The notes below the pieces were generated by a model. The model did no database searches. It saw nothing but the letters and a program-made list of their open reading frames with translations, and was not told the DNA's origin. Below are positions 23,248-63,926 of a stretch of 64,000 bases of DNA, piece after piece; position 1 is the stretch's first letter; each line of letters starts with the position of its first letter. Origin of the DNA: Parasedimentitalea marina (GTDB taxonomy: Bacteria > Pseudomonadota > Alphaproteobacteria > Rhodobacterales > Rhodobacteraceae). The stretch lies in NCBI RefSeq assembly GCF_004006175.1, contig NZ_CP033222.1:88907-152906 (forward strand). The letters run 5' to 3'. Position numbers and translations under genes: made by a program.

Positions 23248-25592
23248 TCAGTAATTGCCTTTCACCCGTTCCTTGGTGGGGTCAAAATGTGGAAAGCGCA
23301 CAACCGTGGCCTTCAGACGTTTTTGATCTCCGTCCAATTGCCCGATTTCAAATTTGGTACCGATTTCAGCATGACAAACGTCCACACGGGCCAAGGCGAT
23401 AACCTTCCCCAAAATGGGCGATTTCATTGCCGAGGTAACGATGCCAATTTGCGGCTTGCCCACATGCACACAATCTCCCGGCACTGGCACAATGCCACCG
23501 TCCAGCTCCAGCCCGACAAGGATCTTCTGCGGATGCGCCTTGCGTTGCTCGAGTGCGGCGCGACCAATAAAATCATCCGTTTTGGATTTAAGCGGCACGG
23601 TAAACCCAATCCCGGCCTCCATCGGGTCGGTCTGGTCGTCAAATTCCGATCCGGCAAAATCAATCCCGCTTCGATCCGCAGCATATCCAATGCGGCCAAC
23701 CCCAGTGGCACCATTCCTAACGGCTCGCCCACGGCCCAAATCGCATCAAAGACCTGTTCTGCATCTTTGGGATGGCAAAAGACTTCATAGCCCAGTTCAC
23801 CCGAATACCCGGTGCGGCTCACAACCACCGAGGGGCCGTGAAAATCACCAATCCGGGCGATGCTCAACCGAAACCACGGCAGCTCTTCGACCGTTGCCTG
23901 TTGCGGTGGCGTCCAGATCACCTGTTTCAGGATGTCGCGCGACAAGGGTCCCTGAATGGCGATGTTGCAATGGTGGTCCGTTGAATTTCGCACCCAGGCG
24001 TTCAAGCCCCGTTCCTGCGCCTGCTTGCGAAGCCACAGCCCGGACTGATCATTGCCGCCGATCCAGCGAAAGTTTGTTTCGCCCAACCGATAGACGGTGC
24101 CGTCATCTATCATGCCGCCATGCTCGTAACACATCGCGGTGTAGACAATGGCCCCAACCGCCAGTTTTTGATATTGCGGGTCACACAAAGCTGCATCAGC
24201 TCTTCGGCATCCGGACCGGTGACTTCGTATTTGCGCAGCGGTGACAGGTCCATCACAACCGCTTTTCACGGGCCGCCCAATATTCAGCGATGGCGCCGTG
24301 ATTGGTCATTTGGTTGGGCAGCCAGTATCCCGCATATTCTACAAAATCACGGGTATGCTTTGCAAAGCAGTCATGAAATCCCGTCCTCTTAGTGCTTTCC
24401 ACATCGGCCTCCGGTGTCTTGCGCCAGCCTATCGAGCGCTTGAAGTCTTCGTTTTCCCGGTAGACCCGCACCTGTATATCCGTGGGGTTCCAACCATTGG
24501 CAGGGTCCACATCGCAGGGACAAGCGGTCGAGACGCACAGCAGATCAGTCAGCGCGCGCAGCATCACATAGTCGCCCGGTCGGGAGTATGGATCGTCCAT
24601 GCTGATGGCATTGGTGTCATCCAGCATGGTGTTGAAAAAGAAATTGATCGCCAGCCACCGCGTGGGCGCACCCCATACGCAGACAGTTCCCGGTTGATAT
24701 TATCCGAACAATTGATGTGACCGGGATAGCCCAGATCCTCGTAATAGCGTGCGCTGCAGGCCAGCCCAAAGGTGTCATGGCGGCCCACAGTATCCTGGAT
24801 GATCTCGACCAGCGGTTCCTGATCTGATGAGAAATATTTCGAGAATATACCTGGCGCAGGATACAGCGACCCCATCAGCGACCGGGTGGTGGTCGGGTCG
24901 ATTTCGCGCTCGATACCCTTGTCCAGGGCGCGCAGCGACAGCGCTTGAAAATCAGAACATTCACGCCCCTGCACATCCAGAATTTGGATAAACTGCCCGG
25001 CCTTCACCTCATAGGGTTTGGCCTGTCCGGGCTGAATATTGTAATCGCCCAGCGTTGCCGCCAATGGATCTGGCGGCGTCAGGATATCTTTTGCCGCCAA
25101 TGGATTAAACCGGCGCAGATACAGAACCACTTCGGTTGGAGCCCATTGCTCCTGTGGTTCCATCGCCGCGCCAGCCGCGCAGACAATCAACAGCCCATCG
25201 CATGAGGCCACGAAACTGGCAGTCTCGCCCGCGCGGGACCCGTCCGCAAACACCACCGTGCCATCAGCCCTGCCAATGTCAAATCCCGCAGTGTTCAGCG
25301 CCTGAACCACCTTGGCCCCCGAGACGTCACGCAGCAAGGCAGCCTTTAGCCCCTGCGGGTCCCGCCCGCCCCTGGCTCCGATCATGCCAGCGTCACTGCT
25401 GCCATCAGGTGCAAAAAACACCATTTCGACCGGCTGCAGCCCTTCGCGATCCTGAAGCGTGATTTCATCACCCTGAAACACCGGCACCGCCCGACTGCCC
25501 CCTCCGGGCACTGGGTGGCGTTCAACACCGCGCGGCAACACCGACAGCCCGGGAGTGATCACCCCCGCGCGTTCAAATGGTGTTGGAAACAT
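23248..25592 (-). CDS. tdm: Trimethylamine N-oxide demethylase Tdm, DUF1989-GcvT fusion (four frameshifts)
   Basis: About 780 residues when joined. The N-terminal half is a DUF1989 domain with cysteine motifs RECSDFQAL, FGLACSARY and HINCSDNINREL, which supply metal ligands in this family. The C-terminal half is a GcvT-like folate domain (CYEHGGMIDDGTVYRLGE, VVVSRTGYSGELGYEVF, GLAALDMLRIEAG). This architecture is that of Tdm, which splits TMAO to dimethylamine and formaldehyde and passes the C1 unit to tetrahydrofolate. Breaks lie near 24674, 24257, 24166 and 23667, each fixed by one G or A. ATG at 25592 is chosen; a TTG at 25607 would overlap the cupin gene. It is last in the tmo operon. Confidence 0.88.
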
Positions 25593-25596
25593 TGGA

Positions 25597-25986
25597 TTAA
25601 TGGTCAATTGCCTGGTCCCACTCTTCGGGTTGCAGATTGCGGATTTTACCGTGGTGCGTGACGATCAGCTTGCACCCGGATGGCGAGGTCGACTGGTGTT
25701 GAGACCCGGCTTTGAGACTGACAAAATCCCCGGTGCCATAAATCGTCCCGTCGAAATCAACCATTTCACCGTCCAGGACATAGAATTCTTCCATGCCCAA
25801 ATGACGGTGCGGTGCGCTGAAACTTCCCGGTGCCATGATCATCAGGTAACTGCCCCGTCCGGATACCTCGTCAAACGAAATATTGAACCACCAGACATCA
25901 TCACAGACCGCGCCCTTGATTTGCATCGGCTCAAACTGTGCCGTGCTGACATTGGCAATTGTCCTGAGGTCAGAAATCCCAGCCAT
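25597..25986 (-). CDS. Cupin-domain protein in the TMAO operon
   Basis: A small protein of about 129 residues with one cupin barrel. The metal-binding first motif is PHRHLGMEEFYVLDGEM, and the second motif region is TGDFVSLKAGSQHQSTSPSG. ATG at 25986 is four bases after the reconstructed permease stop, so it is translationally coupled; longer in-frame starts overlap the permease. Function is unknown. Between the TMAO transporter and Tdm it might bind a metal or help handle formaldehyde, but that is speculation. Confidence 0.8.
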   Translation of the reverse strand: MAGISDLRTIANVSTAQFEPMQIKGAVCDDVWWFNISFDEVSGRGSYLMIMAPGSFSAPHRHLGMEEFYVLDGEMVDFDGTIYGTGDFVSLKAGSQHQSTSPSGCKLIVTHHGKIRNLQPEEWDQAIDH

Positions 25987-25990
25987 CAAC

Positions 25991-27961
25991 TCACCCAACA
26001 CCCAGCGATTTACGGCGCTCATTGGACCAGCGCATGATGATATGGTCAAAAGTCAGCGCCATCAGGGCCACACACATGCCCAAAACAAAGTTCTTGCCAA
26101 GGTCATTGCTTAAGCAAGCGTCTTTTGCAGCTCCTGGCCCAGATCCTGAGTGCCGATAAAGGCGGCGATGATGACCATGAAAAGGCAAACATGATGGCCT
26201 GATTGAACCCCACAGCCATAGTCGGCAAAGCCAGCGGCAGCTGCACTTTCATCAGTTTCTGATGCCGGGTCGCGCCCGACATATCAGCCGCCTCGATCAA
26301 TTCCAGAGGAACCCCACGCAGGCCTTCGATGGTGTATCGGGTTAGCGGCACGGTGGCAAAGATCAGGATCGCAAAGACAACCGCCACATCGTTGACACTG
26401 AACAGCATGATGGCCGGGATCAGATAGATAAAGCTGGGAAAGGTCTGCATGGTGTCACAGGCCAGTAAAATCGGTTCCGCCCATTTTTCATTACGCGCCG
26501 CCGCAATCCCCAGCGGAATGCCGATCAGCACTGCCAGGATCACCGCCGAAATGACGGCGTATAGGGTGATGATCGATCGATCCCACCATCCGGTCAGCGC
26601 AATGATGCCAAAGAAACCAAAGGCCAAGAGAGCAGACTTGCGTCCTCCAACGGCATAGCCAAGGGCTGCGACAGCCAGAAGAATGCTAAAGGTCGGCAAC
26701 CATAGCAAGGCGTTGCGAAAGGGGATCAAGACCCAGGTGATCAGAAACCAGCGCAGCCAGCCGGTCACCGCCGTCACCCCGTCATTGGCCAGAACCGCAC
26801 GGATCACACCATCGATTTCTTTGCCGACAGACAGGTCCTGCTTGCGGGTGATGTGATCCGCCACCTGCACAAATTGCGCAATAACAAGAAATCCGACAAA
26901 GGCGGCAACGCCAAGCAACAGGGTCCTGTGCCGCGTGGCCCAGGTCGCGCCGCGTTCAAAATGCTCCGGCTGCTTGACCACCCAGGCCTTTGACATCCGG
27001 TCCAGGGTCACCGCGATCAGAACAATGGTCACGCCAATTTCAAAACTACGTCCCAGTTTCAACGAGTTCATCAGAGACAGCAGCTTGGCCCCAAGTCCCG
27101 GCATACCGATAAAGGCAGTCAGAACAACCATGGCAAGACACAGCATGATAACCTGGTTCACACCCACCAGGATCTCGGTTCTGGCGGCAGGCAGGTAAAC
27201 ATGGCGCAGCATCTGCCAGCGGGTTGACCCGCTCATATGGTAACCTCAACAACATCGGGCGACACTTTTTTCAACCCCAGCGAGGTCATCAGAACCATTG
27301 GTGGAATCGCGTAGATGATCGTCGCCACACAGCCGGCGGTTGGCCCGACTTTGAAAAAGATCACTGCAGGTAGCAGGTAGGTGAAAAATGGCAGCGTTTG
27401 CAGCACCGAAAGCAGCGGCATCAATGCCCGTTCAAACCGTTTGGATTTCCAGGCCAGAATGCCCAGCAACAGTCCTAGGAAAAACGCCACGGGGGCTGCA
27501 ACCGCAATCACTGACATCGTTTGCATCGCCAGTTTCCACTGGCCAATCAGCGCCACCCAGATAAAGGTTCCGCCACTCAACAGCGCCAAACGTTTGCCAC
27601 CCAGCCAGTAACCGGTCACGGCAATAACCGCCGTCACGGCAGTCCAGGGAATGGGGCCGATATTGGGCCAGCGCCGTTTGCCATACAGCAGATTGGCGGT
27701 GACATCGAGCAACCACTCCAATCCCAATGAAATGCCTCGGGTCACATGGATCAGACCAAGATCATCTTTGATGAAGTCAAAAATGGCCTGAAACCAGATG
27801 TCATAGGGCAGCACCGCCCAATCCGGCACCCGGATCAGAAAATCGGGCAGAATGGGTCGCAGAACGGCAATCGCTACGGCGCAGCCCAGCAGGATTTTGG
27901 CAACCTGCGGATTGGACCACTTGCGGCCACTGGTTGAAAAATTGGTGTCGGCAATCGCCAT
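25991..27961 (-). CDS. tmoW: TMAO ABC transporter fused permease TmoW (frameshifts)
   Basis: Two ProW-like permease domains in one chain of about 657 residues. Domain one ends with LQTLPFFTYLLPAVIFFKVG and the EAA loop around VVEVADMSGSTRWQMLRHVYLP; domain two has CDTMQTFPSFIYLIPAIMLF and EAADMSGATRHQKLMKVQLP, followed by a final segment DLGKNFVLGMCVALMALTFD. Breaks are near 27240, 26178 and 26111; the last coincides with GCTTAAGC where Ala-Gly is expected. The double-permease layout is that of the TMAO importer TmoXWV. Start overlaps the ATPase stop by one base. Confidence 0.85.
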
Positions 27962-28989
27962 TATGCGTCTCCCAGCAACACATTAAGTGCATGTTGCCGG
28001 TTCAACGCGCCAATCAGCGCCCCATCTTTGTCAGCCACGGGCAAGACGTCCCGCGTTTCATTGATCAACTGGCGCGCAAGTTGCTGAATGGTTGCACTGT
28101 CCAGAATTGGCGTCCCCTCGACGGTGGACCCGTTCAAGGGTGTCGTCAAAGCGCTGGCGCGCACAACGCGGGATTTTTCAATGTCTTCGGTGAATTTTTT
28201 GACATAGGGCGTGGCCGGGTTCAGCACGATCTGCGCTGGGGTGTCGCATTGTTCAACGGCACCATTTTTCATGATGGCAATACGGTCGGCCAATCGAAGC
28301 GCCTCGTCAAAATCGTGGGTGATAAAGACAATAGTTTTGCCCAGCATTTCCTGAAGACGCAGAAACTCATCCTGCATTTCACGCCGGATCAACGGGTCCA
28401 GGGCAGAAAACGGCTCGTCGAGAAACCAAATGTCGGGCTCAATCGCAAGCGAACGGGCAATACCAACCCTCTGCTGCTGGCCCCCGGACAATTCGCGTGG
28501 AAAATACTCTTCGCGGCCTTCCAGCCCAACCAATTTGATCACTTCCATGGCGCGTTCACGGCGATCGTGGCGTCCCTGCCCCCGCATTTCCAACGGAAAT
28601 GCAACGTTCTCCAGCACTGTCCGGTGTGGCAACAGTCCAAAGCTCTGGAACACCATGCCCATCTTACTGCGACGCAGCTCAATCAACTCGTTTTCATTCA
28701 GAGCCATTATGTCCTGGCCTTCGACAGCAATGTTGCCGCCGGTAATGTCATGCAACCGCGAAAAACACCGCACCAAGGTGGATTTCCCAGAGCCTGACAA
28801 CCCCATGATCACCAGCATCTCACCGCGCGCAATATCCAGCGAAACATTGCTTACGCCGGCAATATACCCATCTGAATGGATTTCATCATAGGTCCGGCCC
28901 TCGGGCATCTGCGCCAGATAGTCCTCGGGTTTGTTCCCAAAGATCTTCCAAACATTTTGGCATGATATTACTGGCGTTTCAGCGGACAT
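27961..28989 (-). CDS. tmoV: TMAO ABC transporter ATPase TmoV
   Basis: A 342-residue ProV-like ATPase. Walker A is MGLSGSGKSTL, the signature is LSGGQQQRVGIARSLA, Walker B is IWFLDEPFSALD, and THDFDEAL carries the switch His. The C-terminal stretch ending LPVADKDGALIGALNRQHAL resembles the regulatory CBS-like tail of glycine-betaine ATPases. It drives the fused permease encoded after it (one-base overlap). The assignment to TMAO rests on the neighbouring fused permease and tdm; glycine betaine or choline remain alternatives. Confidence 0.88.
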   Translation of the reverse strand: MSAETPVISCQNVWKIFGNKPEDYLAQMPEGRTYDEIHSDGYIAGVSNVSLDIARGEMLVIMGLSGSGKSTLVRCFSRLHDITGGNIAVEGQDIMALNENELIELRRSKMGMVFQSFGLLPHRTVLENVAFPLEMRGQGRHDRRERAMEVIKLVGLEGREEYFPRELSGGQQQRVGIARSLAIEPDIWFLDEPFSALDPLIRREMQDEFLRLQEMLGKTIVFITHDFDEALRLADRIAIMKNGAVEQCDTPAQIVLNPATPYVKKFTEDIEKSRVVRASALTTPLNGSTVEGTPILDSATIQQLARQLINETRDVLPVADKDGALIGALNRQHALNVLLGDA

Positions 28990-29058: not shown

Positions 29059-30237
<1,179 letters not shown>

Positions 30238-31185
30238 ATGAAGACGGGGAACACCTCCTTACCTCCGCTGGACTATTTGCTGGCGTTTGAGGCCGCGGCC
30301 GAGACACAAAGTTTTGTCGGCGCTTCAAAAATGCTCAACATCAGCGAAACCGCGATCAGCCGCAAAGTTCGTTTGCTTGAGTTGCACTATGGAATTTCGC
30401 TGTTTGTACGGGGCCATCGGTCGATCACGCTGTCGTCACAGGGCATATCCTTTCTGGCCCGTATCCAGCCCGCACTGCAGGATCTGCGCGATGCATCCCG
30501 CCTTATCGTTGCAGAACATCAGCACAATCCGGTGACCGTCGCTGCCACCAACTCGGTGGCGACTTTATGGTTGATGCCGCGTCTCAATCAATTCACCCGG
30601 AAAAACAAACACCTGAAAATTATGATGGTTGCCTCGGACAATGACGACGAATGCCTGTCCGAAACGGTGGATCTGGCAATTCTGCGCGGGTCGGGCCACT
30701 GGCCAGGGTTTCAGGCGCAGTTATTGTTCGGTGAAACGATTTTTCCGATCTGTTCCCCGGCGTACCTGGAGGCAAATCCGGAGGCCGCAGATTTAGCCAC
30801 CTTCCCGTCTCACGACTTTCTCGAAGTCTCTTCCAAGCACACAGAATGGATGAATTGGCAGGTCTGGCTGAACACGATTGGCTCGCCCATTGCCGATCTG
30901 GAACGCTCGGCTTTGTTCAATACCTATCCAATGATGGTTCAGGCTGCGGTTGACGGATTGGGCATTGGACTTGGGTGGCGGCATTTGGTGGACCCGCTGA
31001 TCGCTCAAGGTAAATTGGTCAAACCCATAAAAGATCAGAACGTTCGCACAGACCAGGGATACTATCTGTTGCGCGCGGACCAGGCTGTTGATTTTGAAGA
31101 ATGCCAAATCGTCGAAAACTGGCTGTTAAGCATCAGTGAAAACCGCTCACGCTACGAGGGCTTCCCGACAAATTCGCCTAAGTAA
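30238..31185 (+). CDS. LysR-type (GcvA-like) transcriptional regulator
   Basis: An uninterrupted 315-residue regulator. The N terminus LPPLDYLLAFEAAAETQSFVGA with NISETAISRKVRLLE is the GcvA/AmpR-type winged helix; the rest is the effector domain, including DLAILRGSGHWPG and GLGIGLGWRHLVDPL. It lies between the TMAO operon (divergent) and the mgd operon (same strand, 111 bases downstream), so it may control either or both. The effector is unknown; a methylated amine or N-methylglutamate is plausible. Confidence 0.9.
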   Translation: MKTGNTSLPPLDYLLAFEAAAETQSFVGASKMLNISETAISRKVRLLELHYGISLFVRGHRSITLSSQGISFLARIQPALQDLRDASRLIVAEHQHNPVTVAATNSVATLWLMPRLNQFTRKNKHLKIMMVASDNDDECLSETVDLAILRGSGHWPGFQAQLLFGETIFPICSPAYLEANPEAADLATFPSHDFLEVSSKHTEWMNWQVWLNTIGSPIADLERSALFNTYPMMVQAAVDGLGIGLGWRHLVDPLIAQGKLVKPIKDQNVRTDQGYYLLRADQAVDFEECQIVENWLLSISENRSRYEGFPTNSPK

Positions 31186-31296: not shown

Positions 31297-32563
31297 ATGC
31301 GGTACTCAGGTCTTCGTGTGATTAAAGAGGCTTTGACGGGTCATCGGGGCTGGGGTCCTGTTTGGCGTGATCCTGAGCCGCAATCTTCGTATGATTTTGT
31401 GATTATTGGCGGTGGTGGGCATGGGTTGGCCACGGCGTATTATCTGGCCAAGACCTTTGCCAAGTCCCGCATTGCGGTGCTTGAAAAAGGCTGGATTGGC
31501 GGCGGTAATGTTGGCCGCAACACCACGATCATCCGCTCGAACTATATGCTGGATGGCAACGAGCCGTTTTATGAGTATTCGCTGAAGCTGTGGGAGGGTC
31601 TGGAGCAGGAGCTGAACTATAATGCGATGGTCAGCCAGCGCGGCATTCTCAACCTGATCCACAGCGATGCGCAACGCGATGCCTTTGTCCGGCGTGGCAA
31701 TGCCATGATATTGAACGGGGCCGATGCCGAGCTGCTGAGCACCGAGCAGATCCGCAAGGAATACCCGTTTCTTGATTTTGACAACGCCCGGTTCCCGATC
31801 AAGGGCGGGTTGGCGCAGCGGCGCGGTGGCACGGTGCGCCATGATGCGGTGGCCTGGGGCTATGCCCGGGGCGCTGACAGGCTGGGCGTTGATATCATCC
31901 AGAACTGCGAAGTCACCGGGTTCCGCATTGAGGATGGGATCTGCAAAGGGTGGAAACCTCGCGCGGGTTCATTGGCGCCGGTAAGGTCGGCTGCGCGGTT
32001 GCGGGCTCGTCTGGTCGGCTGATGGCCAAGGCCAATATGCGGCTGCCGATCGAAAGCCATGTCTTGCAGGCCTTTGTCTCGGAGGGGTTAAAGCCCATTC
32101 TGCCCGGCGTCATCACCTTTGGCGCGGGTCATTTTACTGCAGTCAGTCCGACAAGGGCGGGCTGGTGTTTGGCGGCGATATTGACGGCTACAACTCTTAT
32201 GCCCAGCGGGGCAATCTGCCGGTGGTCGAGGATGTCTGCGAAAGCGGCATGGCGCTGATCCCGGCGCTGGGGCGCGCCCGTCTGCTGCGCATGTGGGGCG
32301 GCGTCATGGACATGTCGATGGATGGCTCTCCGATCATTGATCGCACCCATATTGACGGGCTCTATTTCAACGGCGGCTGGTGTTACGGCGGCTTCAAGGC
32401 CATCCCGGCGTCGGGCATGTGTTATGCCCATCTGCTGGCCACCGACACCCCACACGACGTTGCCACCGCCTATCGCTTTGATCGTTTCCGGCGTGGCCAC
32501 ATGATCGATGAAAAGGCATGGGCGCCCAGCCCAACCTGCATTGAGGAGCACCTGAGATGCTGA
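31297..32563 (+). CDS. mgdA: N-methylglutamate dehydrogenase subunit A, SoxB-like (frameshifts)
   Basis: A flavoprotein of about 417 residues when corrected. The start RYSGLRVIKEALTGHRGW and VIIGGGGHGLATAYYLAK are typical of SoxB; RRGGTVRHDAVAWGYARGAD carries the His region associated with covalent FMN in sarcosine oxidase. The C-terminal part has GGVMDMSMDGSPIIDRTHIDG and GGWCYGGFKA. Breaks at a G run near 31946 and a T run near 32136. Linked to gmaS and mgsABC in the same window, this SoxB paralogue is better named MgdA, which oxidises N-methylglutamate, than sarcosine oxidase. Confidence 0.85.
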
Positions 32564-32844
32564 TCAACCACCCGCTTCTTGGCCCTCGCGACGCGCAAGA
32601 GTTCACCTATCTGGGCGATGCTTCGCTGATCAACCGGCCCGACTGGCAGGCCGAGGATGCCCAGGAGCAGTTCCACGACTACCTGTATCTGCGGGATAAT
32701 CCCGCAGGTCTGCACCGCGAGCTGTGGTTCCACGAGACCGGCGATCGCAGCTGGGTGGTGGTGACACGCGACACCACCACCCATGAAATCACCAAGGTTG
32801 AGCTGGCCCGCGATGTGGCCCGCTCCCTTGGCCGCAGCAAATAG
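32557..32844 (+). CDS. mgdB: N-methylglutamate dehydrogenase subunit B, SoxD-like
   Basis: A 95-residue small subunit starting LINHPLLGPRDAQEFTYLGD. In sarcosine oxidase the delta subunit holds zinc through cysteines near the N terminus (a CPxCG-type motif); here the equivalent positions read HPLLGPRD, and the chain has no cysteine. The rest (QFHDYLYLRDNPAGLHRELW, VTRDTTTHEI) matches the SoxD family. It overlaps mgdA's end by seven bases. The missing zinc ligands may mark the MgdB branch. Confidence 0.88.
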   Translation: MLINHPLLGPRDAQEFTYLGDASLINRPDWQAEDAQEQFHDYLYLRDNPAGLHRELWFHETGDRSWVVVTRDTTTHEITKVELARDVARSLGRSK

Positions 32845-32855
32845 AGGCGCCGACC

Positions 32856-35798
32856 ATGGCACAACCAAACCGATTACCCGGTGGCCAGATTGACCGCAGC
32901 CGGACGTTGAGCTTCACCTTTGATGGCAGGTCTTATCAGGGTCATCCCGGCGACACGCTGGCCTCGGCGCTGCTGGCCAATGGGGTGCGGCTGATGGGGC
33001 GCTCGTTCAAATACCACCGTCCGCGCGGGGTGCTGTCCTCGGGCAGCGAGGAGCCCAACGCCCTGGTCGAGCTGCGCAGCGGTGCGCGCCGCGAACCCAA
33101 TACCCGCGCCACCACGGCGGAATTGTTTGACGGGCTGATGGCCAATAGCCAGAACCGCTGGCCGTCGCTGAAGTTCGACGCCATGGCGATCAACGACCGG
33201 TTCTCCACCTTTCTGACCGCCGGATTTTACTACAAGACCTTCATGTGGCCCGCGGCCTTCTGGGAAAAATCTACGAGCCGATCATCCGCAAAGCTGCCGG
33301 TCTGGGGTCGCTGTCCTTGCAGGAAGATCCCGATAGCTATGACAAAGGCTTCCTGCACTGTGATCTGCTGATTGTTGGCGCTGGCCCTGCCGGTCTGGCG
33401 GCGGCGCTGACGGCGGCGCGCGCCGGGGCACAGGTGATCCTGGCCGAGGAGGATTTTGTCTTTGGCGGTCGCCTGAACGCGGAAAATTTTGAGATTGGCG
33501 AAGGATCTGCACTGGACTGGGTCTCGCAGACCATGGCAGAGCTGCAGACGCTGCCCAATGTGCGTTGCATGGCGCGCACCACAATTATTGGCGCCTTTGA
33601 CCACGGCATCCACGGCGCAGTCGAGCGGGTCTCGGACCATCTGGCCACGCCGGATGCGGGCAAGCCGCGCCAGATCCTGTGGCGCATCTACGCCAAGCGC
33701 ACGCTGCTGTGTGCCGGGGCGATTGAGCGGCCCATTGCCTTTGAAAACAACGACCGGCCCGGCATCATGCTGGCCGGATCCATGCGCGCCTATGCCAATC
33801 GCTGGGCCGCAACTCCGGCGCAGAAAGTGGTGGTGTTTACCAATAATGACGATGGCCACCGCACCGCCCTGGACCTGATCGCCAAAGGCGTGGGCGTCGC
33901 TGCCGTGATCGACACCCGTCCTGATGCGCCGCGTCTGGCCGATTGCGAGCTGATCCAGGGCGCCCGGGTGATCGACACCTCGGGCCGGTTGGGGCTGAAC
34001 TTTATCCAGCTGCGTCTGGCGGATGGCTCGGAACGCACCATTGAGTGCGGCGCGCTTGGCGTCTCCGGCGGCTGGAACCCAAATGTGCATATGACCTGCC
34101 ACCAGCGCGGTCGCCCGGTCTGGAATGATCAGATCGCTGCTTTTGTTCCGGGGATGGCCCTGCGGGCTTAAGTGTTCTTAAGCGCCGCCAATGGCGATTT
34201 CTCAACCGCTGCGGCACTGGCCAGTGGCAGCAAACAGGCGGTACAGGCGCTGCAAGAGCTGGAGATTGACGCCCCGCAATCACCCTGCCGCAGGCAGAAG
34301 ACGCGCCCGTCAACCTGCAGGCCTTTTGGCATGTGGGCGAGGGCAAGGGCCGCGCCTGGCTGGATCAGCAAAACGATGTCACCGTCAAGGACGTCAAACT
34401 GGCACATCAGGAGAACTTCCGCTCGGTCGAGCACCTGAAGCGCTATACCACGCTGGGCATGGCGACGGATCAGGGCAAGACGTCGAACATGGGCGGCCTG
34501 GCGATCATGGCCGAACTGGCGGGCAAATCGATCCCGCAGGTCGGCACTACCATTTTCCGCCCCCTATACCCCAGTGGCAATGGGCACCCTTGGCGGCCGC
34601 TCACGCGGGGATTTCCACCCCACCCGCAAGACCCCAGTCACATCTGGGCCGCCGAACAGGGCGCGGTGTTTGTCGAGGTCGGCAATTGGCTGCGGGCCCA
34701 GTGGTTCCCGCAACAGGGCGAGACCCATTGGCGCCAAAGTGTCGACCGCGAGGTCCGCGCCACCCGTGGCTCTGTCGGGATCTGTGATGTGACCACCCTG
34801 GGCAAAATTGACGTCCAGGGCGCGGATGCGGCGGATTTCCTGAACCGGGTCTATGCCAATGCCTTTGCCAAACTGCCGGTGGGCAAAACCCGCTATGGGT
34901 TGATGCTGCGCGAGGATGGCATTGCCATGGACGACGGCACCACCGCACGTCTGGCCGAGGATCATTTTGTGATGACCACCACCACCGCCAATGCGGTCAC
35001 GGTCTATCGCCACATGGAATTTGTCCACCAATGCCTGTGCCCGGATATGGATGTGCAGCTGATCTCCACCACCGAGGCCTGGGCGCAATATGCCGTGGCC
35101 GGTCCCAACAGCCGGGCCCTGCTGCAAAGATTGTCGACCCGCGTTTGACATCAGCAACGAGGCATTCCCATTCATGGGCTGCGCTGAGATCACCGTCTGC
35201 GGCGGCTTACGTGCCCGGTTGTTCCGGATCTCGTTCTCGGGCGAGTTGGCCTTTGAAATTGCGGTGCCCACCCGCTATGGCGACGCGCTGATCCGGGCGC
35301 TGATGCAGGCCGGAGAAGAATTCGACGTGGTGCCCTATGGCACCGAGGCCCTAGGCGTGATGCGGATCGAAAAAGGTCACGCGGCGGGCAACGAGCTGAA
35401 CGGCACCACCACCGCGCTGAACCTTGGCATGGGACGGATGGTGTCCAAAAGAAAGACTGCATCGGCAACACCCTGTCCGAGCGCGCCGGGCTGAACCCGG
35501 TGGATGCGCTGGCGCTGGTCGGCTTTAAACCGGTGAACAGCACTGACAAAGTCACGGCAGGCGGGCATCTGATCACCGCAGGTGATGCGGTGGATGCGGC
35601 GCATGATCAGGGCTATGTCACCTCGGCCTGTTATTCACCGATCCTGAACAGCTCGATCGGCATTGGCTTCCTGAAGAACGGCAGCGCCCGCCTGGGCGAG
35701 ACCCTGCTGCTGACCAGCCCGCTGACCGGATTGGACGTGCAAGTTCAAGTGGTCAGTGCGCATTTTGTAGACCCAGAGGGGACCGTCTTCGTGATTAA
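32856..35798 (+). CDS. mgdC: N-methylglutamate dehydrogenase subunit C, SoxA-like (several frameshifts)
   Basis: Large subunit of about 985 residues. Order: ferredoxin-like N-terminal domain (FTFDGRSYQGHPGDTLASAL), Rossmann domain (IVGAGPAGLAAALTAARAGA), then a GcvT-like folate domain (DREVRATRGSVGICDVTTLG, GLMLREDGIAMDDGTTARL, GVMRIEKGHAAGNELNG). It oxidises N-methylglutamate and passes the C1 unit to tetrahydrofolate. Breaks lie near 33264, 34272, 35130, 35146, 35448 and 35780. An in-frame TAA at 34169 sits in two close CTTAAG sequences where a GVAGAANGDFS-type motif is expected. Correcting the last break gives a stop at 35798 overlapping mgdD. Confidence 0.85.
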
Positions 35799-39217: not shown

Positions 39218-39226
39218 TGGTACCCC

Positions 39227-52027: not shown

Positions 52028-53227
52028 ATGGACATCCACGAGTATCAGGCCAAGGAAATTCTCTCGAATTTCGGCGTCGAAGTACCATCTGGCGCCTTGG
52101 CGTACAGTCCGGAACAAGCCGCGTATCGGGCGCGCGAACTGGGGGCGACAAATGGATCGTCAAGGCTCAGGTGCACGCAGGTGGCCGCGGCAAGGCGGGC
52201 GGCGTCAAGCTGTGCAACAGCGAAAGCGAGATTTATGACGCCTGCGACGACATGTTTGGTCGCAAGCTGGTCACACATCAAACCGGCCCCGAGGGCAAGG
52301 GCATCTACCGCGTATACGTGGAATCCGCAGTGCCCATCGAAAGCGAAATCTATCTGGGTCTGGTACTGGACCGGTCCAGCCAACGGGTGATGATCGTGGC
52401 CTCGTCCGAGGGTGGCATGGAAATCGAAGAGATTTCCGCTGATCGCCCCGACAGCATTGTGCGCTCCATCGTCGAACCGGCTGCAGGTCTGCAAGAGTTT
52501 CAGGCCCGCGAAATCGCCTTTGATCTGGGGCTAGAGCCCGGCCAGGTCCAGCACATGGTGCGCACTTTGCAAGGCTGCTACCGGGCGTTTCGCGATCTCG
52601 ATGCCACCATGGTTGAAATCAACCCGCTGGTCGTCACCAGTGACAACCGGGTGATGGCGCTTGATGCCAAGATGAGCTTTGACGACAACGCCCTGTTCCG
52701 TCACCCGCAAATCGCCGAGCTGCGCGACAAAAGCCAGGAAGATCCGCGCGAAAGCCGCGCCGCCGATCGGGGCCTGTCTTACGTCGGCCTGGATGGCAAC
52801 ATCGGCTGCATCGTGAACGGCGCCGGGCTGGCAATGGCAACCATGGACACCATCAAACTGGTAGGCGGCGAGCCTGCAAACTTCCTTGATATTGGCGGCG
52901 GTGCCTCGCCCGAACGGGTGGCCAAAGCCTTCCGTCTGGTTCTGTCCGACACCAAAGTACAGGCCGTTCTGGTCAATATCTTTCTTAAGCATCAACCGTT
53001 GCGACTGGGTGGCCGAAGGCGTTGTGCAGGCCCTGCGCGAGCTGGACATCGACATTCCGGTGATTGTGCGTCTGGCGGGCACCAATGTCGAAGAGGGTCA
53101 AAAGATCCTCGCCAAATCCGGCCTGCCAATCATCCGCGCCACCACATTGATGGAGGCCGCCGAGCGCGCAGTGGGCGCATGGCAAAACGATCTTACCCAA
53201 TCCACCAAGATGAGGGCAGTGAAATGA
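52028..53227 (+). CDS. mtkA: Malate-CoA ligase (malate thiokinase) beta subunit (two breaks)
   Basis: A SucC-like ATP-grasp protein of about 396 residues. [20 protein letters not shown] opens it; [28 protein letters not shown] and [20 protein letters not shown] follow. A G is missing near 52143. At 52984 CTTAAGC replaces the sequence for Ala-Gly in the invariant [15 protein letters not shown]. In the serine cycle it makes malyl-CoA from malate; succinyl-CoA synthetase is the alternative, but the neighbours hprA, ppc and mcl favour malate. It overlaps mtkB by ATGA. Confidence 0.87.
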
Positions 53228-54109
53228 GCATTCTTCTCGACCGTGACAGTCGCGTCATCGTTCAGGGCATCACCGGCCGTATGGCCCGGTTCCACACCAA
53301 AGACATGCTTGAATATGGCACCAATGTAGTAGGCGGCGTTGTCCCCGGAAAAGGCGGGCAAACTGTTGACGGGGTGCCGGTATTTGACACCGTAAAACAG
53401 GCCGTTGAAGCAACCAATGCCAATGCCAGCCTGGTCTTTGTGCCGCCGCCCTTTGCGGCAGATTCGATCATGGAAGCCGCCGATGCAGGCATTCGCTACT
53501 GCGTCTGCATCACCGACGGTATCCCGGCCCAGGATATGATCCGGGTGAAACGCTACATGTACCGCTATCCCAAGGACAAGCGGATGGTGCTGACCGGACC
53601 GAACTGCGCCGGCACCATCAGCCCCGGCAAGGCGCTTCTGGGGATTATGCCCGGCCATATCTACCTGACCGGAAACGTCGGCATCATTGGCCGCTCGGGC
53701 ACGCTGGGCTATGAGGCCGCAGCGCAGCTGAAAGAACGCGGCATCGGTGTCTCCACCAGCGTCGGTATCGGCGGCGATCAATCAACGGCTCATCGTTCCG
53801 CGATATCCTGCAGTGGTTTGAACAGGACGAGGACACCCACATCATTGCGATGATTGGTGAAATTGGTGGCCCACAAGAGGCCGAGGCCGCAGAGTATATC
53901 CGCGACCACATCACCAAACCTGTGGTGGCCTATGTCGCGGGTCTGACCGCTCCCAAAGGCCGCACCATGGGTCACGCGGCGCGATCATCTCGGCCTTTGG
54001 CGAAAGCGCCAGCGAAAAGGTTGAAATCCTGTCTGCCGCCGGGGTGACCGTGGCCGAAAACCCAGCCGTCATCGGCGAAACCATCGCCCGCGTGATGGAG
54101 GCCGCGTGA
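53224..54109 (+). CDS. mtkB: Malate-CoA ligase alpha subunit (frameshifts)
   Basis: A SucD-like CoA-binding subunit of about 296 residues: [80 protein letters not shown] and, in later frames, [20 protein letters not shown]. The active-site His lies in the usual GHAGAII segment, split by a missing G near 53977; a C is missing near 53782. It pairs with MtkA and overlaps hprA by TGATG. Confidence 0.87.
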
Positions 54110-55079
54110 TGGTCAAACCCTCTGTCCTTGTCACCCGCCGCTGGCCCGCCGCCGTCGAGGCACAGCTGACTGAAACCTACAATACGGTGCTCAATACCGG
54201 GGACATGCCCATGTCCCCGGCCGAGCTCCGCAGCGCCTTAAAACCTATGATGCGGTGCTGCCCACAGTGACCGATACCCTCACCGCCGAGGCGCTGGATC
54301 TGCCCGCCTCACAGACCAAAATCCTTGCAAACTATGGTGTTGGCTATAGCCACATCTGCGAGGAATCCGCCCGCGAACTGGGCATGACTGTGACCAACAC
54401 GCCGGACGTCTTGTCGGAATGCACCGCTGATCTGGCGATGACACTGCTGTTGATGGCGGCGCGGCGTGTAGCGAAGGCGAGCGCGAGCTGCGCGCTTAAG
54501 CGGCTGGACCGGCTGGCGCCCAACCCATCTGGTTGGCACCAAGGTCAGCGGTAAAACACTGGGCATCGTTGGCTTTGGTCGCATCGGACAGGAAATGGCA
54601 CGCCGCGCGCATCATGGGTTCGGTATGGAAATCCTGGTTCAGAACCGCAGCCGCGTCGCACCGGATGTGCTGGCGCAATGCAACGCGGTTCAGGTTGACA
54701 GCTTGGATGATCTGCTGCCGAAATGTGATTTTGTCTCGCTGCACTGCCCCGGTGGCACGGCAAACCGGCACCTGATCAACTCGCGCCGCTTGGACCTGAT
54801 GAAATCCGGTGCCTTCCTGATCAACACCGCCCGCGGTGAAGTGATTGACGAGTTTGCTTTGATTCAGGCCCTGAGTTTCGATCTGATCGGTGGCGCGGCG
54901 CTGGATGTGTTCGACGGCGAACCCCGGATCAGCCCGGACCTGCTGCACTGCGACAACCTTGTGATGTTGCCTCATCTCGGCAGCGCCACCCGTGAGGCCC
55001 GCGAGGCGATGGGGTTTCGTGTTCTCGACAATCTGGATGACTTCTTTCAGGGCCGCACACCACGCGATCGGGTGATCTG

Positions 55080-55080
<1 letters not shown>
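54109..55080 (+). CDS. hprA: Hydroxypyruvate reductase, D-2-hydroxyacid dehydrogenase family (frameshifts)
   Basis: An NAD(P)H enzyme of about 324 residues that reduces hydroxypyruvate (and glyoxylate) to glycerate. NYGVGYSHI, GKTLGIVGFGRIGQEMARRA (Rossmann), FVSLHCPGGTANRHLIN, GAFLINTARGEVIDE and MLPHLGSATREAREAMG (catalytic His) are present. Breaks near 54240 and 54471, plus GCTTAAGC at 54494 where ELRAGGWTGWRPTHL is expected. Start overlaps mtkB, stop overlaps ppc. Confidence 0.88.
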
Positions 55081-57702
<2,622 letters not shown>

Positions 57703-57725: not shown

Positions 57726-59018
57726 ATGAACGCCCCCAATCGCCCCGACGGGTTCTTCACCGAAGGTCTCGCCAGCCGTGACCCCGAGATTTTCGGCTCG
57801 ATCACCCGTGAGCTGGGCCGCCAGCGCGATGAGATCGAACTGATCGCATCGGAAAACATCGTGTCAGCGGCCGTGATGGAAGCGCAAGGCTCGGTTCTGA
57901 CCAACAAATACGCCGAGGGTTATCCCGGACGTCGTTACTATGGCGGCTGCCAGCATGTCGACGTGGCGGAAACCCTGGCAATCGACCGGGCCAAGGACCT
58001 GTTTGGCTGTGATTTTGCCAATGTTCAGCCCAATTCGGGGTCTCAGGCCAACCAGGGCGTGTTCCAGGCGCTGATCAAACCGGGCGACACCATCCTCGGC
58101 ATGGATCTATCCGTAAGCGGACACCTGACCCACGGCGCCAAGCCCAACCAATCGGGAAAATGGTTCAACGCGGTGCACTATGGCGTCAGGCGCGAAGACA
58201 GCCGCATCGACTATGATCAGATCAAGCCCTTGCAACTGAACACAAACCTGCATTGATCATTGCCGGTGGCTCTGCCATTCCGCGTCAAATCGATTTTGCA
58301 CGGTTCCGTGAAATCGCCGATTCAGTTGGCGCCTTTCTATTGGTCGACATGGCGCATTTCGCAGGTCTGGTCGCCGCGGGCGAGCACCCTCGCCGTTTCC
58401 CTATGCCGATGTTGCCACCACCACCACGCATAAAACCCTGCGTGGGCCGCGCGGCGGCATGATCCTGACCAACAACGCGGATATCGCGAAAAGGTCAATT
58501 CAGCGATCTTTCCCGGCATCCAGGGTGGTCCGCTGATGCATGTGATCGCGGCCAAGGCGGTGGCTTTTGGCGAAGCCCTGCGTCCGGAATTCAAAACCTA
58601 TCAGAAACAAGTGCGGGCCAACGCAGTGGCCCTCGCGGATCAATTGATGAAGGGCGGGCTCGATATCGTTTCGGGCGGCACTGACACCCATTTGATGCTG
58701 GTCGATCTGCGCCCCAAGGGCGTAACCGGCAACATTGTGGATGCGGCTCTTGGTCGGGCTCATATCACCTGCAACAAAAACGGCATCCCGTTTGACCCGG
58801 AAAAACCGATGGTCACCTCGGGCATTCGTTTGGGCACTCCGGCCGGCACCACCCGTGGCTTCGCCGAGGCTGAGTTTCGCGAAATCGCCGACTTGATAGT
58901 CGAGGTCGTCGACGGTCTCGCCGCCCATGGCGCCGACAGCAACGGCGCTGCAGAAGACAGCGTTCGCGCCAAAGTGGCCAACCTATGTGCCCGCTTCCCT
59001 CTTTACCAGAATCTCTAA
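57726..59018 (+). CDS. glyA: Serine hydroxymethyltransferase (three frameshifts)
   Basis: A PLP and folate enzyme of about 431 residues that makes serine from glycine and methylene-THF, the C1 entry point of the serine cycle. [58 protein letters not shown] and [19 protein letters not shown] (PLP Lys, after correction) are present. Breaks near 58216, 58391 and 58489 each lack one base. It lies 24 bases after ppc. A copy inside this operon is likely the assimilation-dedicated one. Confidence 0.92.
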
Positions 59019-59034
59019 TCCAAGGACCCACCCC

Positions 59035-60012
59035 ATGAGCTTTTTTCCCATTGACCAAGCCCCTGCCCGCCTGAACCGAAGCGAATTGGCTATTCCCGGC
59101 AGCCAGCCAGCCATGTTTGAGAAAGCAGCAAAGTCCGATGTTGATGTGATCTTTTTGGATCTCGAAGACGCTGTTGCACCAGACGAAAAAGAGCAGGCCC
59201 GCAAGAACATTATCCAAGCCCTGAACGAGATCGACTGGGGCAGCAAAACCATGTCGGTGCGCATCAACGGTCTGGACACCCATTACATGTACCGCGATGT
59301 GGTGGATGTGGTGGAACAGGCTGGCGAACGCTTGGATCTGATCATGATCCCCAAAGTGGGCACCGCCGCCGACGTTTATGCCGTCGATATGATGGTGACC
59401 CAGATCGAAGACGCCAAAGGCTACAAAAAGCGGATCGGCTTTGAGCACATCATTGAAACCGCTCTGGGTATGCAGAACGTCACCGAGATCGCGGGTGCCT
59501 CCAAGCGCAACGAAAGCCTGCATTTTGGCGTCGCAGATTACGCCGCCTCGACCCGTGCCCGCACCACAATCATTGGCGGTGTGAACCCGGATTACGCCGT
59601 ACTGACCGACCCGGATGCCTCCGGAAACCGCGAATCCCATTGGGGCGATATGTGGCACTATGCACTGGCCCGCATGGTGGTCGCGGCCCGCGCCAACGGC
59701 TTGCGCCCCATCGACGGTCCGTTTGGTGATTTTCAGGATCCCGCTGGCTACCTTGCTGCGGCCAAGCGTGCCGCTGTTCTCGGCTGCGAAGGCAAATGGG
59801 CCATTCACCCAAGCCAGATTGAGCTTGCAAACCAGGTCATGACGCCTTCGGACGCAGAAGTGACCAAGGCTCAGCGGATTCTGGCAGCCATGGCCGATGC
59901 CGAGGCGGCTGGCAAAGGCGCGGTCTCTCTCGACGGTCGCCTGATCGACTATGCCTCGATCCGTCAAGCCGAAGTTCTGGTGGAAAAAGCCCGCCAGATT
60001 GCCGGGGCCTGA
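59035..60012 (+). CDS. mcl: Malyl-CoA lyase
   Basis: A 325-residue uninterrupted CitE-like lyase that splits malyl-CoA into glyoxylate and acetyl-CoA. RSELAIPGSQPAMFEKAAKS, VIFLDLEDAVAPDEKEQARK (Mg-binding acids), LIMIPKVGTAADVYAVDMMV and HPSQIELANQVMTPSDAEV are typical. The ATG at 59035 gives the normal N terminus. It ends the serine-cycle operon before a terminator. Confidence 0.93.
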   Translation: MSFFPIDQAPARLNRSELAIPGSQPAMFEKAAKSDVDVIFLDLEDAVAPDEKEQARKNIIQALNEIDWGSKTMSVRINGLDTHYMYRDVVDVVEQAGERLDLIMIPKVGTAADVYAVDMMVTQIEDAKGYKKRIGFEHIIETALGMQNVTEIAGASKRNESLHFGVADYAASTRARTTIIGGVNPDYAVLTDPDASGNRESHWGDMWHYALARMVVAARANGLRPIDGPFGDFQDPAGYLAAAKRAAVLGCEGKWAIHPSQIELANQVMTPSDAEVTKAQRILAAMADAEAAGKGAVSLDGRLIDYASIRQAEVLVEKARQIAGA

Positions 60013-60300: not shown

Positions 60301-61507
60301 ATGAGAGAGCAGATGACTGATACTTCTTCGTATGACAACCTGAATGCGGTGATCCGTCAACACTCTGAATGGTTGGCCAATCAATTGCATGCGCAGCGCG
60401 AAAACCTGTTTCCGCCTAATGCTGCCAAAACCATGCGCAAGTTTACGTCTGGCGAAGCCGCTGCGCTGCTCGGTGTCAACGATTCCTATCTGCGCAAACT
60501 TCATTTGAATGGCAAGGGCCCCTCGCCCGAGCTGACCCCGGCAACCGTCGCCTCTATTGCGCGCAGGACATTCAGGATCTGCGGATCCTGCTGGAGAAAA
60601 CCGCCCGCAACCCCGGTGATTACCTGCCCGGCCGCCGCGACGGCGACCATCTGCAGATCATCGGCGTGATGAACTTCAAAGGTGGCTCGGGCAAGACCAC
60701 CAGCGCCGCCCATCTGGCACAACGCCTGGCCCTGACGGGATATCGCGTGCTGGCCATCGATCTCGACCCTCAGGCCTCGCTGACGGCCCTGCACGGCGTC
60801 CAGCCCGAGGTCGACCTGCAGGACGGCGGCACCCTCTATGAGGCCATCCGCTACGACAAACCGGAACCGATCAAATCGGTCATTCGCAAAACATACATCC
60901 CTAATCTGGACCTGATCCCCGGCAATCTTGAACTGATGGAGTTCGAACACGAAACCCCGCGCGCCCTGTCCCAGGGCAATGCTGGTCTGTTCTTCTTCCG
61001 GGTCAAAGAGGCGCTAGCGCAGGTCGATGACGACTATGACGTCGTGGTGATCGACTGCCCGCCACAATGGGCTTTCTCACCATGTCTGCGCTCTCGGCCT
61101 CAACCGGCGTGCTGGTGACAATCCACCCGGAAATGCTCGACGTCATGTCGATGAGCCAGTTCCTGCGGATGACCGCCGACCTGATGGATGTCATCGCCGA
61201 AAGCGGCGCGGACATGTCCCATGACTGGATGCGCTATATGCTGACCCGTTACGAGCCCTCAGATGCGCCACAGAACCGCATCGTGGCGTTTCTGCGCACC
61301 ATGTACGGCGATATGGTGCTGAACACCCCGATGCTCAAATCCACCGCCATTTCGGACGCAGGCCTCACCAAGCAGACTCTCTACGAGGTCGAACGCAGCG
61401 CCTTTACCCGGTCCACCTACGACCGCGCCATCGAAAGCCTCAATGCGGTCAATGACGAAATTGCAGCACTTATTCAAAAAACCTGGGGACGCGGCGATGA
61501 CCAGTAA
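60301..61507 (+). CDS. repA: RepA, ParA-type partition ATPase of a repABC replicon (two frameshifts)
   Basis: About 402 residues. The N terminus has the RepA-specific AVIRQHSEWLANQLHAQREN and FTSGEAAALLGVNDSYLRKL; the ATPase has GVMNFKGGSGKTTSAAHLAQ (deviant Walker A), VLAIDLDPQASLTALHGVQP, and DDYDVVVIDCPPQ followed in another frame by LGFLTMSALSAS. Breaks near 60535 (C run) and 61068. ATG at 60301 or 60313 may be the start. RepA segregates the plasmid with RepB and autoregulates the operon. Confidence 0.92.
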
Positions 61508-62510
61508 GAAAAAACGCATGTCGATGCTCGACAACCTGACCGCAACCGGGGCCCCTTCCCCTGTGGCGGCCTCGTCGATGATGTCCAGCAACCGCGCACT
61601 GCGCTCTGCCCGCGACGCCGTCGATGGTCACAGCATCTGGGAACTGGACCCCGATGCCATTTCCGATGGCAGATTGCGCGACCGTCTCGACCCCGAGGAC
61701 GTGGCAGATCTGCGCGATGCCATCGAGCCAATGGCCAGACGGTGCCAATCCTTGTGCGCCGCCATCCGTCAACACCTGACCGCTATCAACTGGTCTATGG
61801 CCGCCGTCGGCTCGAGGCGATCCGGGTTTCGGACAAACTGGACAAGGTCCGCGCGATTGTCGCCAATATCGATGATGATGCGGCCGTCCGGGCGCAGATC
61901 TCTGAAAACATGGCGCGGCGCGACCTCTCGTTCATCGAAAAAGCCCTTTTCGCACAAGAGCTTATCGACAGCGACTTTGGCACACAGTCGCAGATAGCCG
62001 AGTCCTGACAGTCACCAAATCCTCCATCTCGATGGCGCTGGCCATTGTGGAAACGGTTGGGGTGGATGTTATTCGCGCCATTGGTGCGGCCCATGGCATT
62101 GGCCGTCCCAGATGGGATGCGCTTGGCAAAGCCATCGAAGAAAACCGCATCGACCCGGCCCGGCTGGTCCGGATTGCCGAAGATATTCATGCGCAGGCGG
62201 ATGTCATCGCGGTGACTGAAAATCAGGTGGCCGAACCCGCTGACGTCTCCATTGCCGCCTTCAGCGCGGTGTCAAAAGCTGCGGATCAGGCATCCCCGTC
62301 CCGCGCAGCGTCACCCCAGCGCCCGCCCGCAGCCCTGCCAATCGGCGGGCGCTGACGGTCGATGGCACCCGCAGTGGATCGGTAAACCGCACCGCCAAAG
62401 GTATTTCAATCAGCCTCAACAACAGCGCTTTTGCCGACTGGGTCGAAGCCGAAGCTCAGGATTTGATTGAAGACTTACACCAGCGCTGGCTTCAGCGCCG
62501 CAACGACTGA
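61497..62510 (+). CDS. repB: RepB, ParB-type partition protein (three frameshifts)
   Basis: About 339 residues. KKKRMSMLDNLTATGAPSPV opens it; VPILVRRHPSTPDRYQLVYG and GRRRLEAIRVSDKLDKVRAI are the ParB/Srx core with RRR(L); ENMARRDLSFIEKALFAQEL and LTVTKSSISMALAIVETVG are the DNA-binding part; the C terminus reads GISISLNNSAFADWVEAEAQ. Breaks near 61733, 62003 and 62290. It overlaps repA by 11 bases. It should bind the parS palindrome found after repC. Confidence 0.9.
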
Positions 62511-62685
62511 CACCAAGACAAACCAAACAAAGGAGGCACAGAACGACAAAAGAAAAGGCCCCGTAAAGACATAGCTCCACGAGACCCCAACTTGTTTCTT
62601 GCACCTACAAGTTAGTGTCGTGAGCCTCAGTCCGCAAGTCCTAAGTGATTCGCGGAACGGGATTTCTTTGTCTTCGTGATAGAAA
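62511..62685 (-). ncRNA. Possible counter-transcribed RNA region between repB and repC
   Basis: In repABC replicons a small antisense RNA encoded in the repB-repC gap controls RepC level. This 175-base gap fits in place and length, and the minus strand ends in GGGGCCTTTTCTTTT (about 62547-62562), a T-rich stop-like end. I could not draw a clear terminator stem, so the call rests mainly on known organisation. Confidence 0.35.
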
Positions 62686-63910
62686 ATGACCTACACACCT
62701 GTAACGCCATTCCGGCGACCGATAAATGCTGCCCTGTTGAACATTCAACCACGGACACCGCCCGACCGTCCAACCGAGGGCGTGAATAAATGGGAGGTCC
62801 TGCGAGAGCTGGCCACCGCCCGTCAGGTTTTCGGCTTAACAGACCGGGACATGACCGTGCTGCAGGCCCTCGTCAGTTTCCATCAGAACACCACCCTGGG
62901 CGACAGCGGCGCTCCTCTCGTTGTGCACCCCTCAAACAAATCGATCTGCGAACGGTTAAATGGCATGCCCTGCTCCACCATGCGGCGGCATTTGGGGCAT
63001 CTTGTTGACGCCGGTGTTCTTATCCGTCGCGACAGCCCCAACGGCAAACGCTATGCCCGGCGCTATGGCACCGACAAGATCGCCTTTGGGTTTGATCTGA
63101 CACCGCTTGTGCACCGCTTCAGAGATCTGTGACGCCGCCGAGGAGGTCCGGGCCCAAGCCGAGAAGTTTCACCGCCTGCGCGAGACCGTAAGCCTGATGA
63201 GGCGCGATCTGGCAGGTCTCAGCACCTATGGCGAAGACTGCCGCCCTGACCTGGCAATCTGGACCCAGTTTTCAGACCTGGCCGCCCTCACCGCCCGTGA
63301 CCTTCGCAGAAAGCTTCAATTCGAAGATCTGGAGAAGCTAGAGGTGGTTTTGCACAAGGCGCTGGAGCTGGCACGGGACGTTCTGGAACCTGAAGCAACC
63401 ACTGATCTGAGCACCAGTGCCTCTCAAAATGAGCAGCACCATCAGAATTCTAATAAAGACTCTTATGATTTTGAACCTGGCTTAGAAGACGACCTAAAAA
63501 TCGTATCAATCGCCAAACCAAAAGCCGAAGCTCATCCTGCATCCGAAGACAATAAAGATGGTGTAACCAGTGCGAACGCTAAGGTACCAAATCTACCACT
63601 TGGAATGATATTACGGGCCTGCAAAGAAATACAGCTCTACTCCGAAACCCCCATTCGCCATTGGCATGAGTTCGTCAAAGTTGCCGATACTGTGCGCCCG
63701 ATGATGGGAATTGCACCAACGGCCTGGGATGATGCAAGGCGATCTATGGGTCTCGAAGAAGCCTGCGTTGTTCTGGCGGCTATGTTGGAACGGATTGCGG
63801 ATATTCGCTCTCCCGGAGGATATCTGCGAAGTCTAAGTAACAAGGCTGCTGTTGGTGAATTCTCAAGCGGCCCGATGATTATGGCCTTGATGCGCAAAGA
63901 CGCTGCCTGA
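62686..63910 (+). CDS. repC: RepC replication initiator (one break)
   Basis: About 408 residues. PFRRPINAALLNIQ and NKWEVLRELATARQVFGLTD with PSNKSICERLNGMPCSTMRR and HLVDAGVLIRRDSPNGKRYA form the DNA-binding N-terminal domain; the second part, after a break near 63120 where AG of an AGAGAG run seems lost, has EICDAAEEVRAQAEKFHRLR and ends GGYLRSLSNKAAVGEFSSGP. The middle (about 63420-63600) is polar and low in complexity, a usual linker. RepC is the initiator and oriV usually lies within its gene. Confidence 0.92.
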
Positions 63911-63926
63911 GTTCACAGCTGTGAAC
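63911..63926. promoter_or_regulatory. parS-like palindrome downstream of repC
   Basis: GTTCACAGCTGTGAAC is a perfect 16-base palindrome that fits the repABC parS pattern GTT-N4-GC-N4-AAC. It begins one base after repC's stop codon, a known place for RepB binding sites. I saw only this copy in the window. Confidence 0.8.

Follow-up and report, generated by a model that had tools for sequence, protein, structure and literature searches.

Compact islands of methylotrophy genes were described by Dziewit et al., 2015 (PMC4543880) in Paracoccus sp. N5, R. pomeroyi, L. methylohalidivorans and others, including many roseobacters. By that account the island of Paracoccus sp. N5 is most probably extrachromosomal, and island transfer could make methylotrophs of non-methylotrophs. 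A methylotroph of the Roseobacter group in which all serine-pathway genes were noted has also been reported (PMC5934484). An island of this kind was analysed here in Parasedimentitalea marina (RefSeq assembly GCF_004006175.1), a five-contig genome of 5.08 Mb (contigs C1 to C5). The window, which is the whole stretch of 64,000 nucleotides analysed, is the final 64 kb of contig C4 (NZ_CP033222.1; C4:88907-152906 of 152,906 bp). Positions without a contig prefix are counted from the first base of the window. The stretch is best read as a known rhodobacteral methylotrophy island on a RepABC plasmid, with frameshifts that would be uncorrected insertions and deletions (indels); a probability of about 0.84 is given to this reading.

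Gene content and replicon

The tblastn probes were intact proteins from Ruegeria conchae, Ponticoccus alexandrii and Leisingera. The modules named in the initial annotation (tmo/tdm, dmm, gmaS-mgs, mgd, serine cycle and repABC) were all recovered in their places. The island carries tdm, tmoXWV, dmmDABC, mgsABC-gmaS and an mgdABCD-like operon, and in the same island lie the serine-cycle genes sga, mtkBA, hprA, ppc, glyA and mcl (Table 1). Genes with broken frames were found as separate matches across the breaks. A scan for relatives of Mcl retained 80 of 585 loci. The names tmo, sga, mtk, hpr and mcl follow the annotation of relatives, the gene descriptions in PMC4543880 and general usage; the dmmDABC names are those used in PMC5520151.

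Metabolic steps were assigned from homology and from published work on relatives. TmoXWV would import trimethylamine N-oxide (TMAO), which Tdm would demethylate to dimethylamine. DmmABC(D) would convert dimethylamine to methylamine, and GmaS, MgsABC and MgdABCD would convert methylamine to methylene-tetrahydrofolate and ammonium. GlyA, Sga, HprA, Ppc, MtkAB and Mcl could then channel the one-carbon unit into the serine cycle, with a glycerate kinase probably supplied from the chromosome. Replication and partition of the element would fall to RepABC and parS.

The island had been called near-complete from TMAO to the serine cycle. The serine-cycle genes listed are present, but the cycle is incomplete on C4: the glycerate kinase reference gave no match there, and the only MOFRL match in the genome lies on C1 at 110,321, within an open frame of 475 residues. 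Lack of this kinase on C4 does not exclude membership in this class of islands, because P. aminophilus likewise keeps gck apart from its serine-cycle cluster, as stated in the account of that strain (PMC4543880). C4 had no match to the tmm, folD and purU references; when these were searched along with R. conchae folD and formate-tetrahydrofolate ligase against the four plasmid contigs and 260 kb of C1, nothing matched.

All five 16S genes are on C1 (4,417,125 bp) and C4 has none; a chromosomal location of the island was rejected on this ground. Across the genome, RepC matches were confined to C4 and C3 and RPA-type replicases to C2, and no Rep_3 replicase was found. Within C4, ParB_N matched only once, at the RepB of its own repABC operon. 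On this distribution C4 is most simply a RepABC plasmid, and its plasmid status, which had been taken from repABC, is well supported by its separation from the 16S-bearing contig.

The repA, repB and repC genes stand in that order at the contig end, with ParA-type and RP-C domains by Pfam, and are followed by a perfect parS-like palindrome, as earlier read. By chance a window would contain the loose parS consensus 1.08 times, and the exact palindrome word, with up to 2 mismatches allowed, 0.03 times. The loose consensus being expected by chance, the palindrome counts by its position just behind repC.

Frame breaks

The content and place of the genes agree with the initial annotation; their intactness as deposited does not, a point which it had overlooked. 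Breaks affect 25 of the 32 genes of the island and rep operon. In 22 the frame switches from one match to the next; in the other three (glyA, mgsB and the XRE gene) there are stops in out-of-frame patches. All of repA, repB and repC are among the 25. The intact genes are mcl, dmmA, tmoW, the cupin gene, lysR, mgdB and mgsA. The script had flagged 26 broken genes; mgsA was recounted as intact, its stop lying near the natural end. Across the 32 genes, 45 frame switches were counted between tblastn matches within the window.

Frameshifts were also scanned with a codon-usage hidden Markov model trained on C1, the 13 training pieces being the same as the control pieces. The scan gave 43 shifts in these 260 kb of C1. 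In C4 it gave 34 shifts in the first 112 kb versus 70 between 112 and 152.9 kb. Elsewhere there were 130 shifts in C2 (163 kb), 119 in C3 (237 kb) and 61 in C5 (111 kb). The step in C4 falls after a hipA-like gene (21,416-22,732) and before tdm first changes frame, near 23.6 kb.

Repeated sequences within the assembly served to compare copies. In C2 (163,293 bp) a single circle of about 81.6 kb was assembled as two tandem copies, which differ by 217 gaps versus 38 mismatches over 81.8 kb. Of its single-base gaps, 162/191 are in runs of at least four identical bases, which hold about 6% of bases. The mgd operon (31,294-36,460) was aligned to C3:208154-213335 at 99.56% identity, with 4 mismatches and 13 gaps. 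Eleven of these gaps are bases absent from the window, all 11 in runs of at least four; the other two are absent from C3. The gcvTHP operon (9,358-13,874) and C5:66170-70699 are 99.34% identical. Their alignment has 17 mismatches and 10 gaps; at every gap it is the window copy that lacks sequence, and 6 of the gaps are in runs of at least four. The 17 mismatches in gcvTHP exceed what error alone predicts from the C2 control.

A run of at least four identical bases was present near 30 of 52 frame junctions, versus 14.9 at random (standard deviation 3.1, largest value 28 in 2,000 draws). This junction set extends to glycine-cleavage genes that lie left of the island, counts a redundant glyA reference, and has the MgdC reference matching a paralogue elsewhere on C4. 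Apparent in-frame stops numbered 23 in all matches above 40 bits, some of them overlapping, and 19 within the chosen matches. Identity was below 50% on at least one side of 21 of the 23; of the remaining two, one is at the margin of the XRE match and the other close to where mgsA naturally ends. Codon differences from relatives fell at third positions in 6,573 of 11,228 cases.

The frameshifts look like uncorrected sequencing or assembly indels and not like decay, and in living cells the genes are most likely intact. A plasmid dependent on repABC could not afford such breaks; as repA, repB and repC are all broken and C4 has no second replicase of the classes tested, the breaks would be errors.

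Alternative readings

If the frameshifts were real, the island would be decaying. The concentration of the noise of C4 on the island and repABC would fit decay, as would the share of broken genes, but repABC is broken to an equal degree, clear nonsense mutations are absent and the codon differences are strongly biased to third positions. C2, C3 and C5 are noisy too, and the same homopolymer gaps separate the two C2 copies of one molecule. Decay was rejected on the homopolymer gaps without clear nonsense, the broken repABC and this same-molecule control, and is very improbable.

Several points weigh against uncorrected errors on a single RepABC plasmid. The error reading is drawn from assembled contigs. 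The noise step lies at most about 1 kb from the left edge of the island, which a plain contig-end effect would not predict. Left of the island breaks are rarer yet present (lipA 2, gcvH 1, gcvP 4), and gcvH and gcvP belong to the operon common to C5. RepABC is the only replication module on C4 among the classes searched (RepC, RPA, Rep_3 and ParB_N), DnaA-like modules not having been sought. The initial annotation had proposed checking whether the contig is circular and separate from the chromosome: C4 is separate, and as to circularity, the last 20 bases did not recur in C4:1-20000 or C4:68907-88906, nor was a recognised gene found that bridges the end-to-start join. Another reading takes the 41-kb tail, island and repABC together, to be a molecule that is separate or has poor support and that the assembler joined to the remainder of C4; C4 would then be a chimera or mixture. 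The frame noise rises sharply at about C4:112 kb, adjoining the island edge; the near-identical operons common to C4 and C5 and to C4 and C3 are repeats of the kind that cause joins, and the duplication of C2 shows that the assembly contains structural errors. Neither repeat coincides with the noise step, however, and C4:1-112 kb, having no RepC, RPA, Rep_3 or ParB_N match of its own, would be left without a replicase of those classes. An assembly join had been raised earlier and is only partly countered, since the noise rises near the island edge; we consider it unlikely. The noise step would look alike for a join and for an island carried by part of the culture. Slightly less credence still is given to the arrangement in which island and repABC form a unit of about 41 kb with sequence support abruptly unlike that of the remaining contig, being present in part of the culture or as its own small plasmid joined by the assembler to an amine-catabolism plasmid. 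If true, this unit would be a compact, separately moving methylotrophy replicon. Uncorrected indels in an island on a single RepABC plasmid remain the preferred reading.

The operon at 31.3-36.4 kb is likely mgdABCD, by context and tree. In a beta-subunit tree of 16 rows, the window copy, its C3 twin, the Ponticoccus copy (beside mgs-gmaS) and Sulfitobacter S223 group at 99/96, and four other copies from the same genome fall outside this group. Paracoccus copies linked to N-methylglutamate genes join at 83/91, and those of Phaeobacter porticola and TM1040 at 87/96. A sarcosine oxidase for betaine catabolism, in place of an N-methylglutamate dehydrogenase, is doubtful. It is the name that annotators give the family, and in Phaeobacter porticola and Ruegeria sp. 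TM1040 the operon's close homologues are neighbours of genes for a BCCT transporter and a dipeptidase; the 16 kb viewed there include no gmaS. Reliance on context and tree tells against mgdABCD to the extent that mgs-gmaS-linked copies have no clade of their own, and that copies on gmaS contigs of two congeners branch just outside the group of the window, Phaeobacter porticola and TM1040 copies. The grouping with the mgs-gmaS-linked Ponticoccus copy and the position of the other copies from this genome argue for mgdABCD. So does the helix-turn-helix regulator at 36.4-37.4 kb, which agrees by position with the AraC-type TmaR noted beside mgd in R. pomeroyi (PMC13390433).

Feature coordinates and neighbouring genes

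Table 1. Features of the methylotrophy island and the adjoining replication genes, in window positions.
Feature	Position	Strand	State and evidence
tdm (TMAO demethylase-like)	23251..25607	-	4 frame switches; tblastn to Ruegeria conchae homologue
Cupin gene between tmoV and tdm	25633..25968	-	Frame intact; tblastn
tmoV-like permease	25997..27961	-	3 frame switches; tblastn
tmoW-like ATPase	27970..28989	-	Intact; above cut-off of betaine/proline/choline ABC ATPase subfamily
tmoX-like substrate-binding protein	29062..29997	-	2 frame switches; tblastn
LysR-type regulator	30238..31185	+	Intact; open reading frame and homology
mgdABCD-like operon (heterotetrameric sarcosine-oxidase family)	31297..36353	+	B intact; A, C, D frame-broken
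Helix-turn-helix regulator (AraC-type by relatives), adjoins mgd, TmaR-like in position	36389..37357	-	Frame-broken
XRE-cupin regulator	37573..38163	+	Counted broken (stops); homology and Pfam
dmmC, dmmB, dmmA, dmmD (operon dmmDABC read on minus strand)	38182..41997	-	A intact; C, B, D frame-broken
amtB ammonium transporter	42271..43620	+	3 frame switches; tblastn
mgsABC (N-methylglutamate synthase)	43986..46902	+	A intact; B, C broken
gmaS	46978..48304	+	1 frame switch; tblastn
Group II truncated haemoglobin-like gene	48486..48858	-	Matches in two frames; tblastn
DMT-family transporter	49084..49872	+	Homology
Response regulator	49938..50526	-	1 frame switch; tblastn
sga (serine-glyoxylate aminotransferase)	50769..51999	+	2 frame switches; tblastn
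mtkB, mtkA (malate-CoA ligase)	52028..54097	+	2 frame switches in each; tblastn
hprA	54109..55077	+	2 frame switches; tblastn
ppc	55080..57699	+	5 frame switches; tblastn
glyA	57726..59015	+	One long match hiding an out-of-frame patch with two stops
mcl (malyl-CoA lyase)	59035..60009	+	Intact; 92% to R. conchae
repA	60313..61492	+	2 frame switches; ParA-type ATPase by Pfam
repB	61500..62498	+	3 frame switches; ParB_N match
repC	62698..63904	+	1 frame switch; RP-C N- and C-terminal domains by Pfam
parS-like perfect palindrome, directly 3' of repC	63911..63926	+	Motif scan

The HipA-like gene at the left edge of the island (21,416-22,732) is open over 438 amino acids. A HipA-domain gene also adjoins the serine-cycle end of the R. 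conchae island, at 48.6% identity. Two more clusters of the sarcosine-oxidase family, with open frames, are at C4:27414-31943 and C4:43375-47807, outside the window; C4 looks rich in methylated-amine catabolism. A Rieske oxygenase gene at 3437-4657 is related to the glycine betaine monooxygenase GbcA, under the family cut-off. Genes for a TRAP transporter, an FAD oxidoreductase and a racemase occupy 14974-20259, and their near plasmid matches are all from Leisingera (16/16 records). An Rfam scan at gathering thresholds and a tRNA scan of the window returned nothing. On C3 a beta-subunit gene continues over the contig ends (C3:236843-237026 and C3:1-1031), with residue 78 at the last base and residue 79 at the first; C3 seems to close as a circle.

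Comparison with known systems

An island that joins oxidation to assimilation on a RepABC plasmid bears on the spread of one-carbon assimilation among abundant marine bacteria, a point already in print in 2015. The island is real and was largely correctly read; its bases are untrustworthy at the level of single genes. Automatic annotation would call the C4 copy a wreck of pseudogenes, yet its breaks are patterned like uncorrected indels, and the completeness of the genome, at 100%, gives no sign of them.

Among 295 genomes drawn from the family, an mtkB match was present in 71 and a gmaS match in 98; 41 had both, 24 of these with mtkB at an identity of at least 79%. The two genes were at most 50 kb apart on one contig in at least 5 of the 295 genomes, our own included, a lower bound since many are drafts. 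Within the genus, mtkB was found in 2 and gmaS in 4 of 8 genomes (own included). The earlier statement that marine Rhodobacteraceae usually oxidise methylated amines without assimilating the carbon finds partial support at gene level, 57 of the 98 gmaS genomes lacking an mtkB match and 41 having one.

The initial observation and its interpretation were each upheld in part. The joining of amine oxidation and serine cycle was found on one contig free of 16S genes; the novelty implied for it does not stand, since the joined island, its occurrence in many roseobacters and the idea of transfer are all in PMC4543880. A search of other plasmids for the same gene order, which had been suggested, placed most modules on closed plasmids of R. 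conchae and Paracoccus, with a different order of modules in R. conchae.

The circular plasmid unnamed1 of Ruegeria conchae M340 (NZ_CP081104.1, 787 kb) shares sga-mtkBA-hprA-ppc-glyA-mcl, the XRE gene, dmmCBAD, amtB and mgsABC-gmaS, and also the truncated haemoglobin, DMT and LysR genes, tmoXWV, the cupin gene and tdm. Gene order within modules is alike, whereas the order of the modules differs from that in C4. Unlike C4, it has folD and formate-tetrahydrofolate ligase, and in the roughly 61 kb viewed no mgd-like operon is annotated. In Paracoccus sp. MA (NZ_CP087599.1, 671 kb, circular), tdm-like, dmm, mgs-gmaS, mgd-like, mcl, sga, mtkBA, hprA and ppc genes lie within 40 kb; a gck-like DUF4147 gene, folD, purU and a second dmmABC are added, and glyA was not seen in the stretch viewed. 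Plasmid II of P. aminovorans JCM7685 (185 kb, circular) has tdm-like, dmm and mgd-like genes with glyA, ppc, hprA and mtkA. In Ponticoccus alexandrii the N-methylglutamate and serine-cycle genes are on two different plasmid records. For the replication genes, the RepABC plasmid of Leisingera aquaemixtae (NZ_CP081035.1) likewise has the order repA-repB-repC, at 72.6% DNA identity over 88% of a 3,991-base query; in the 4.8 kb viewed round the rep genes its frames are intact, unlike those of C4.

The islands of Paracoccus sp. N5 and of roseobacters, as set out in the island descriptions of PMC4543880, likewise gather genes for trimethylamine/TMAO, dmm, the N-methylglutamate pathway and the serine cycle in one island. 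Their gene orders vary, and C4 gave no match for the tmm, gck, folD and purU references. The C4 island is known in kind, having been described in 2015, and most of its modules are on public closed plasmids.

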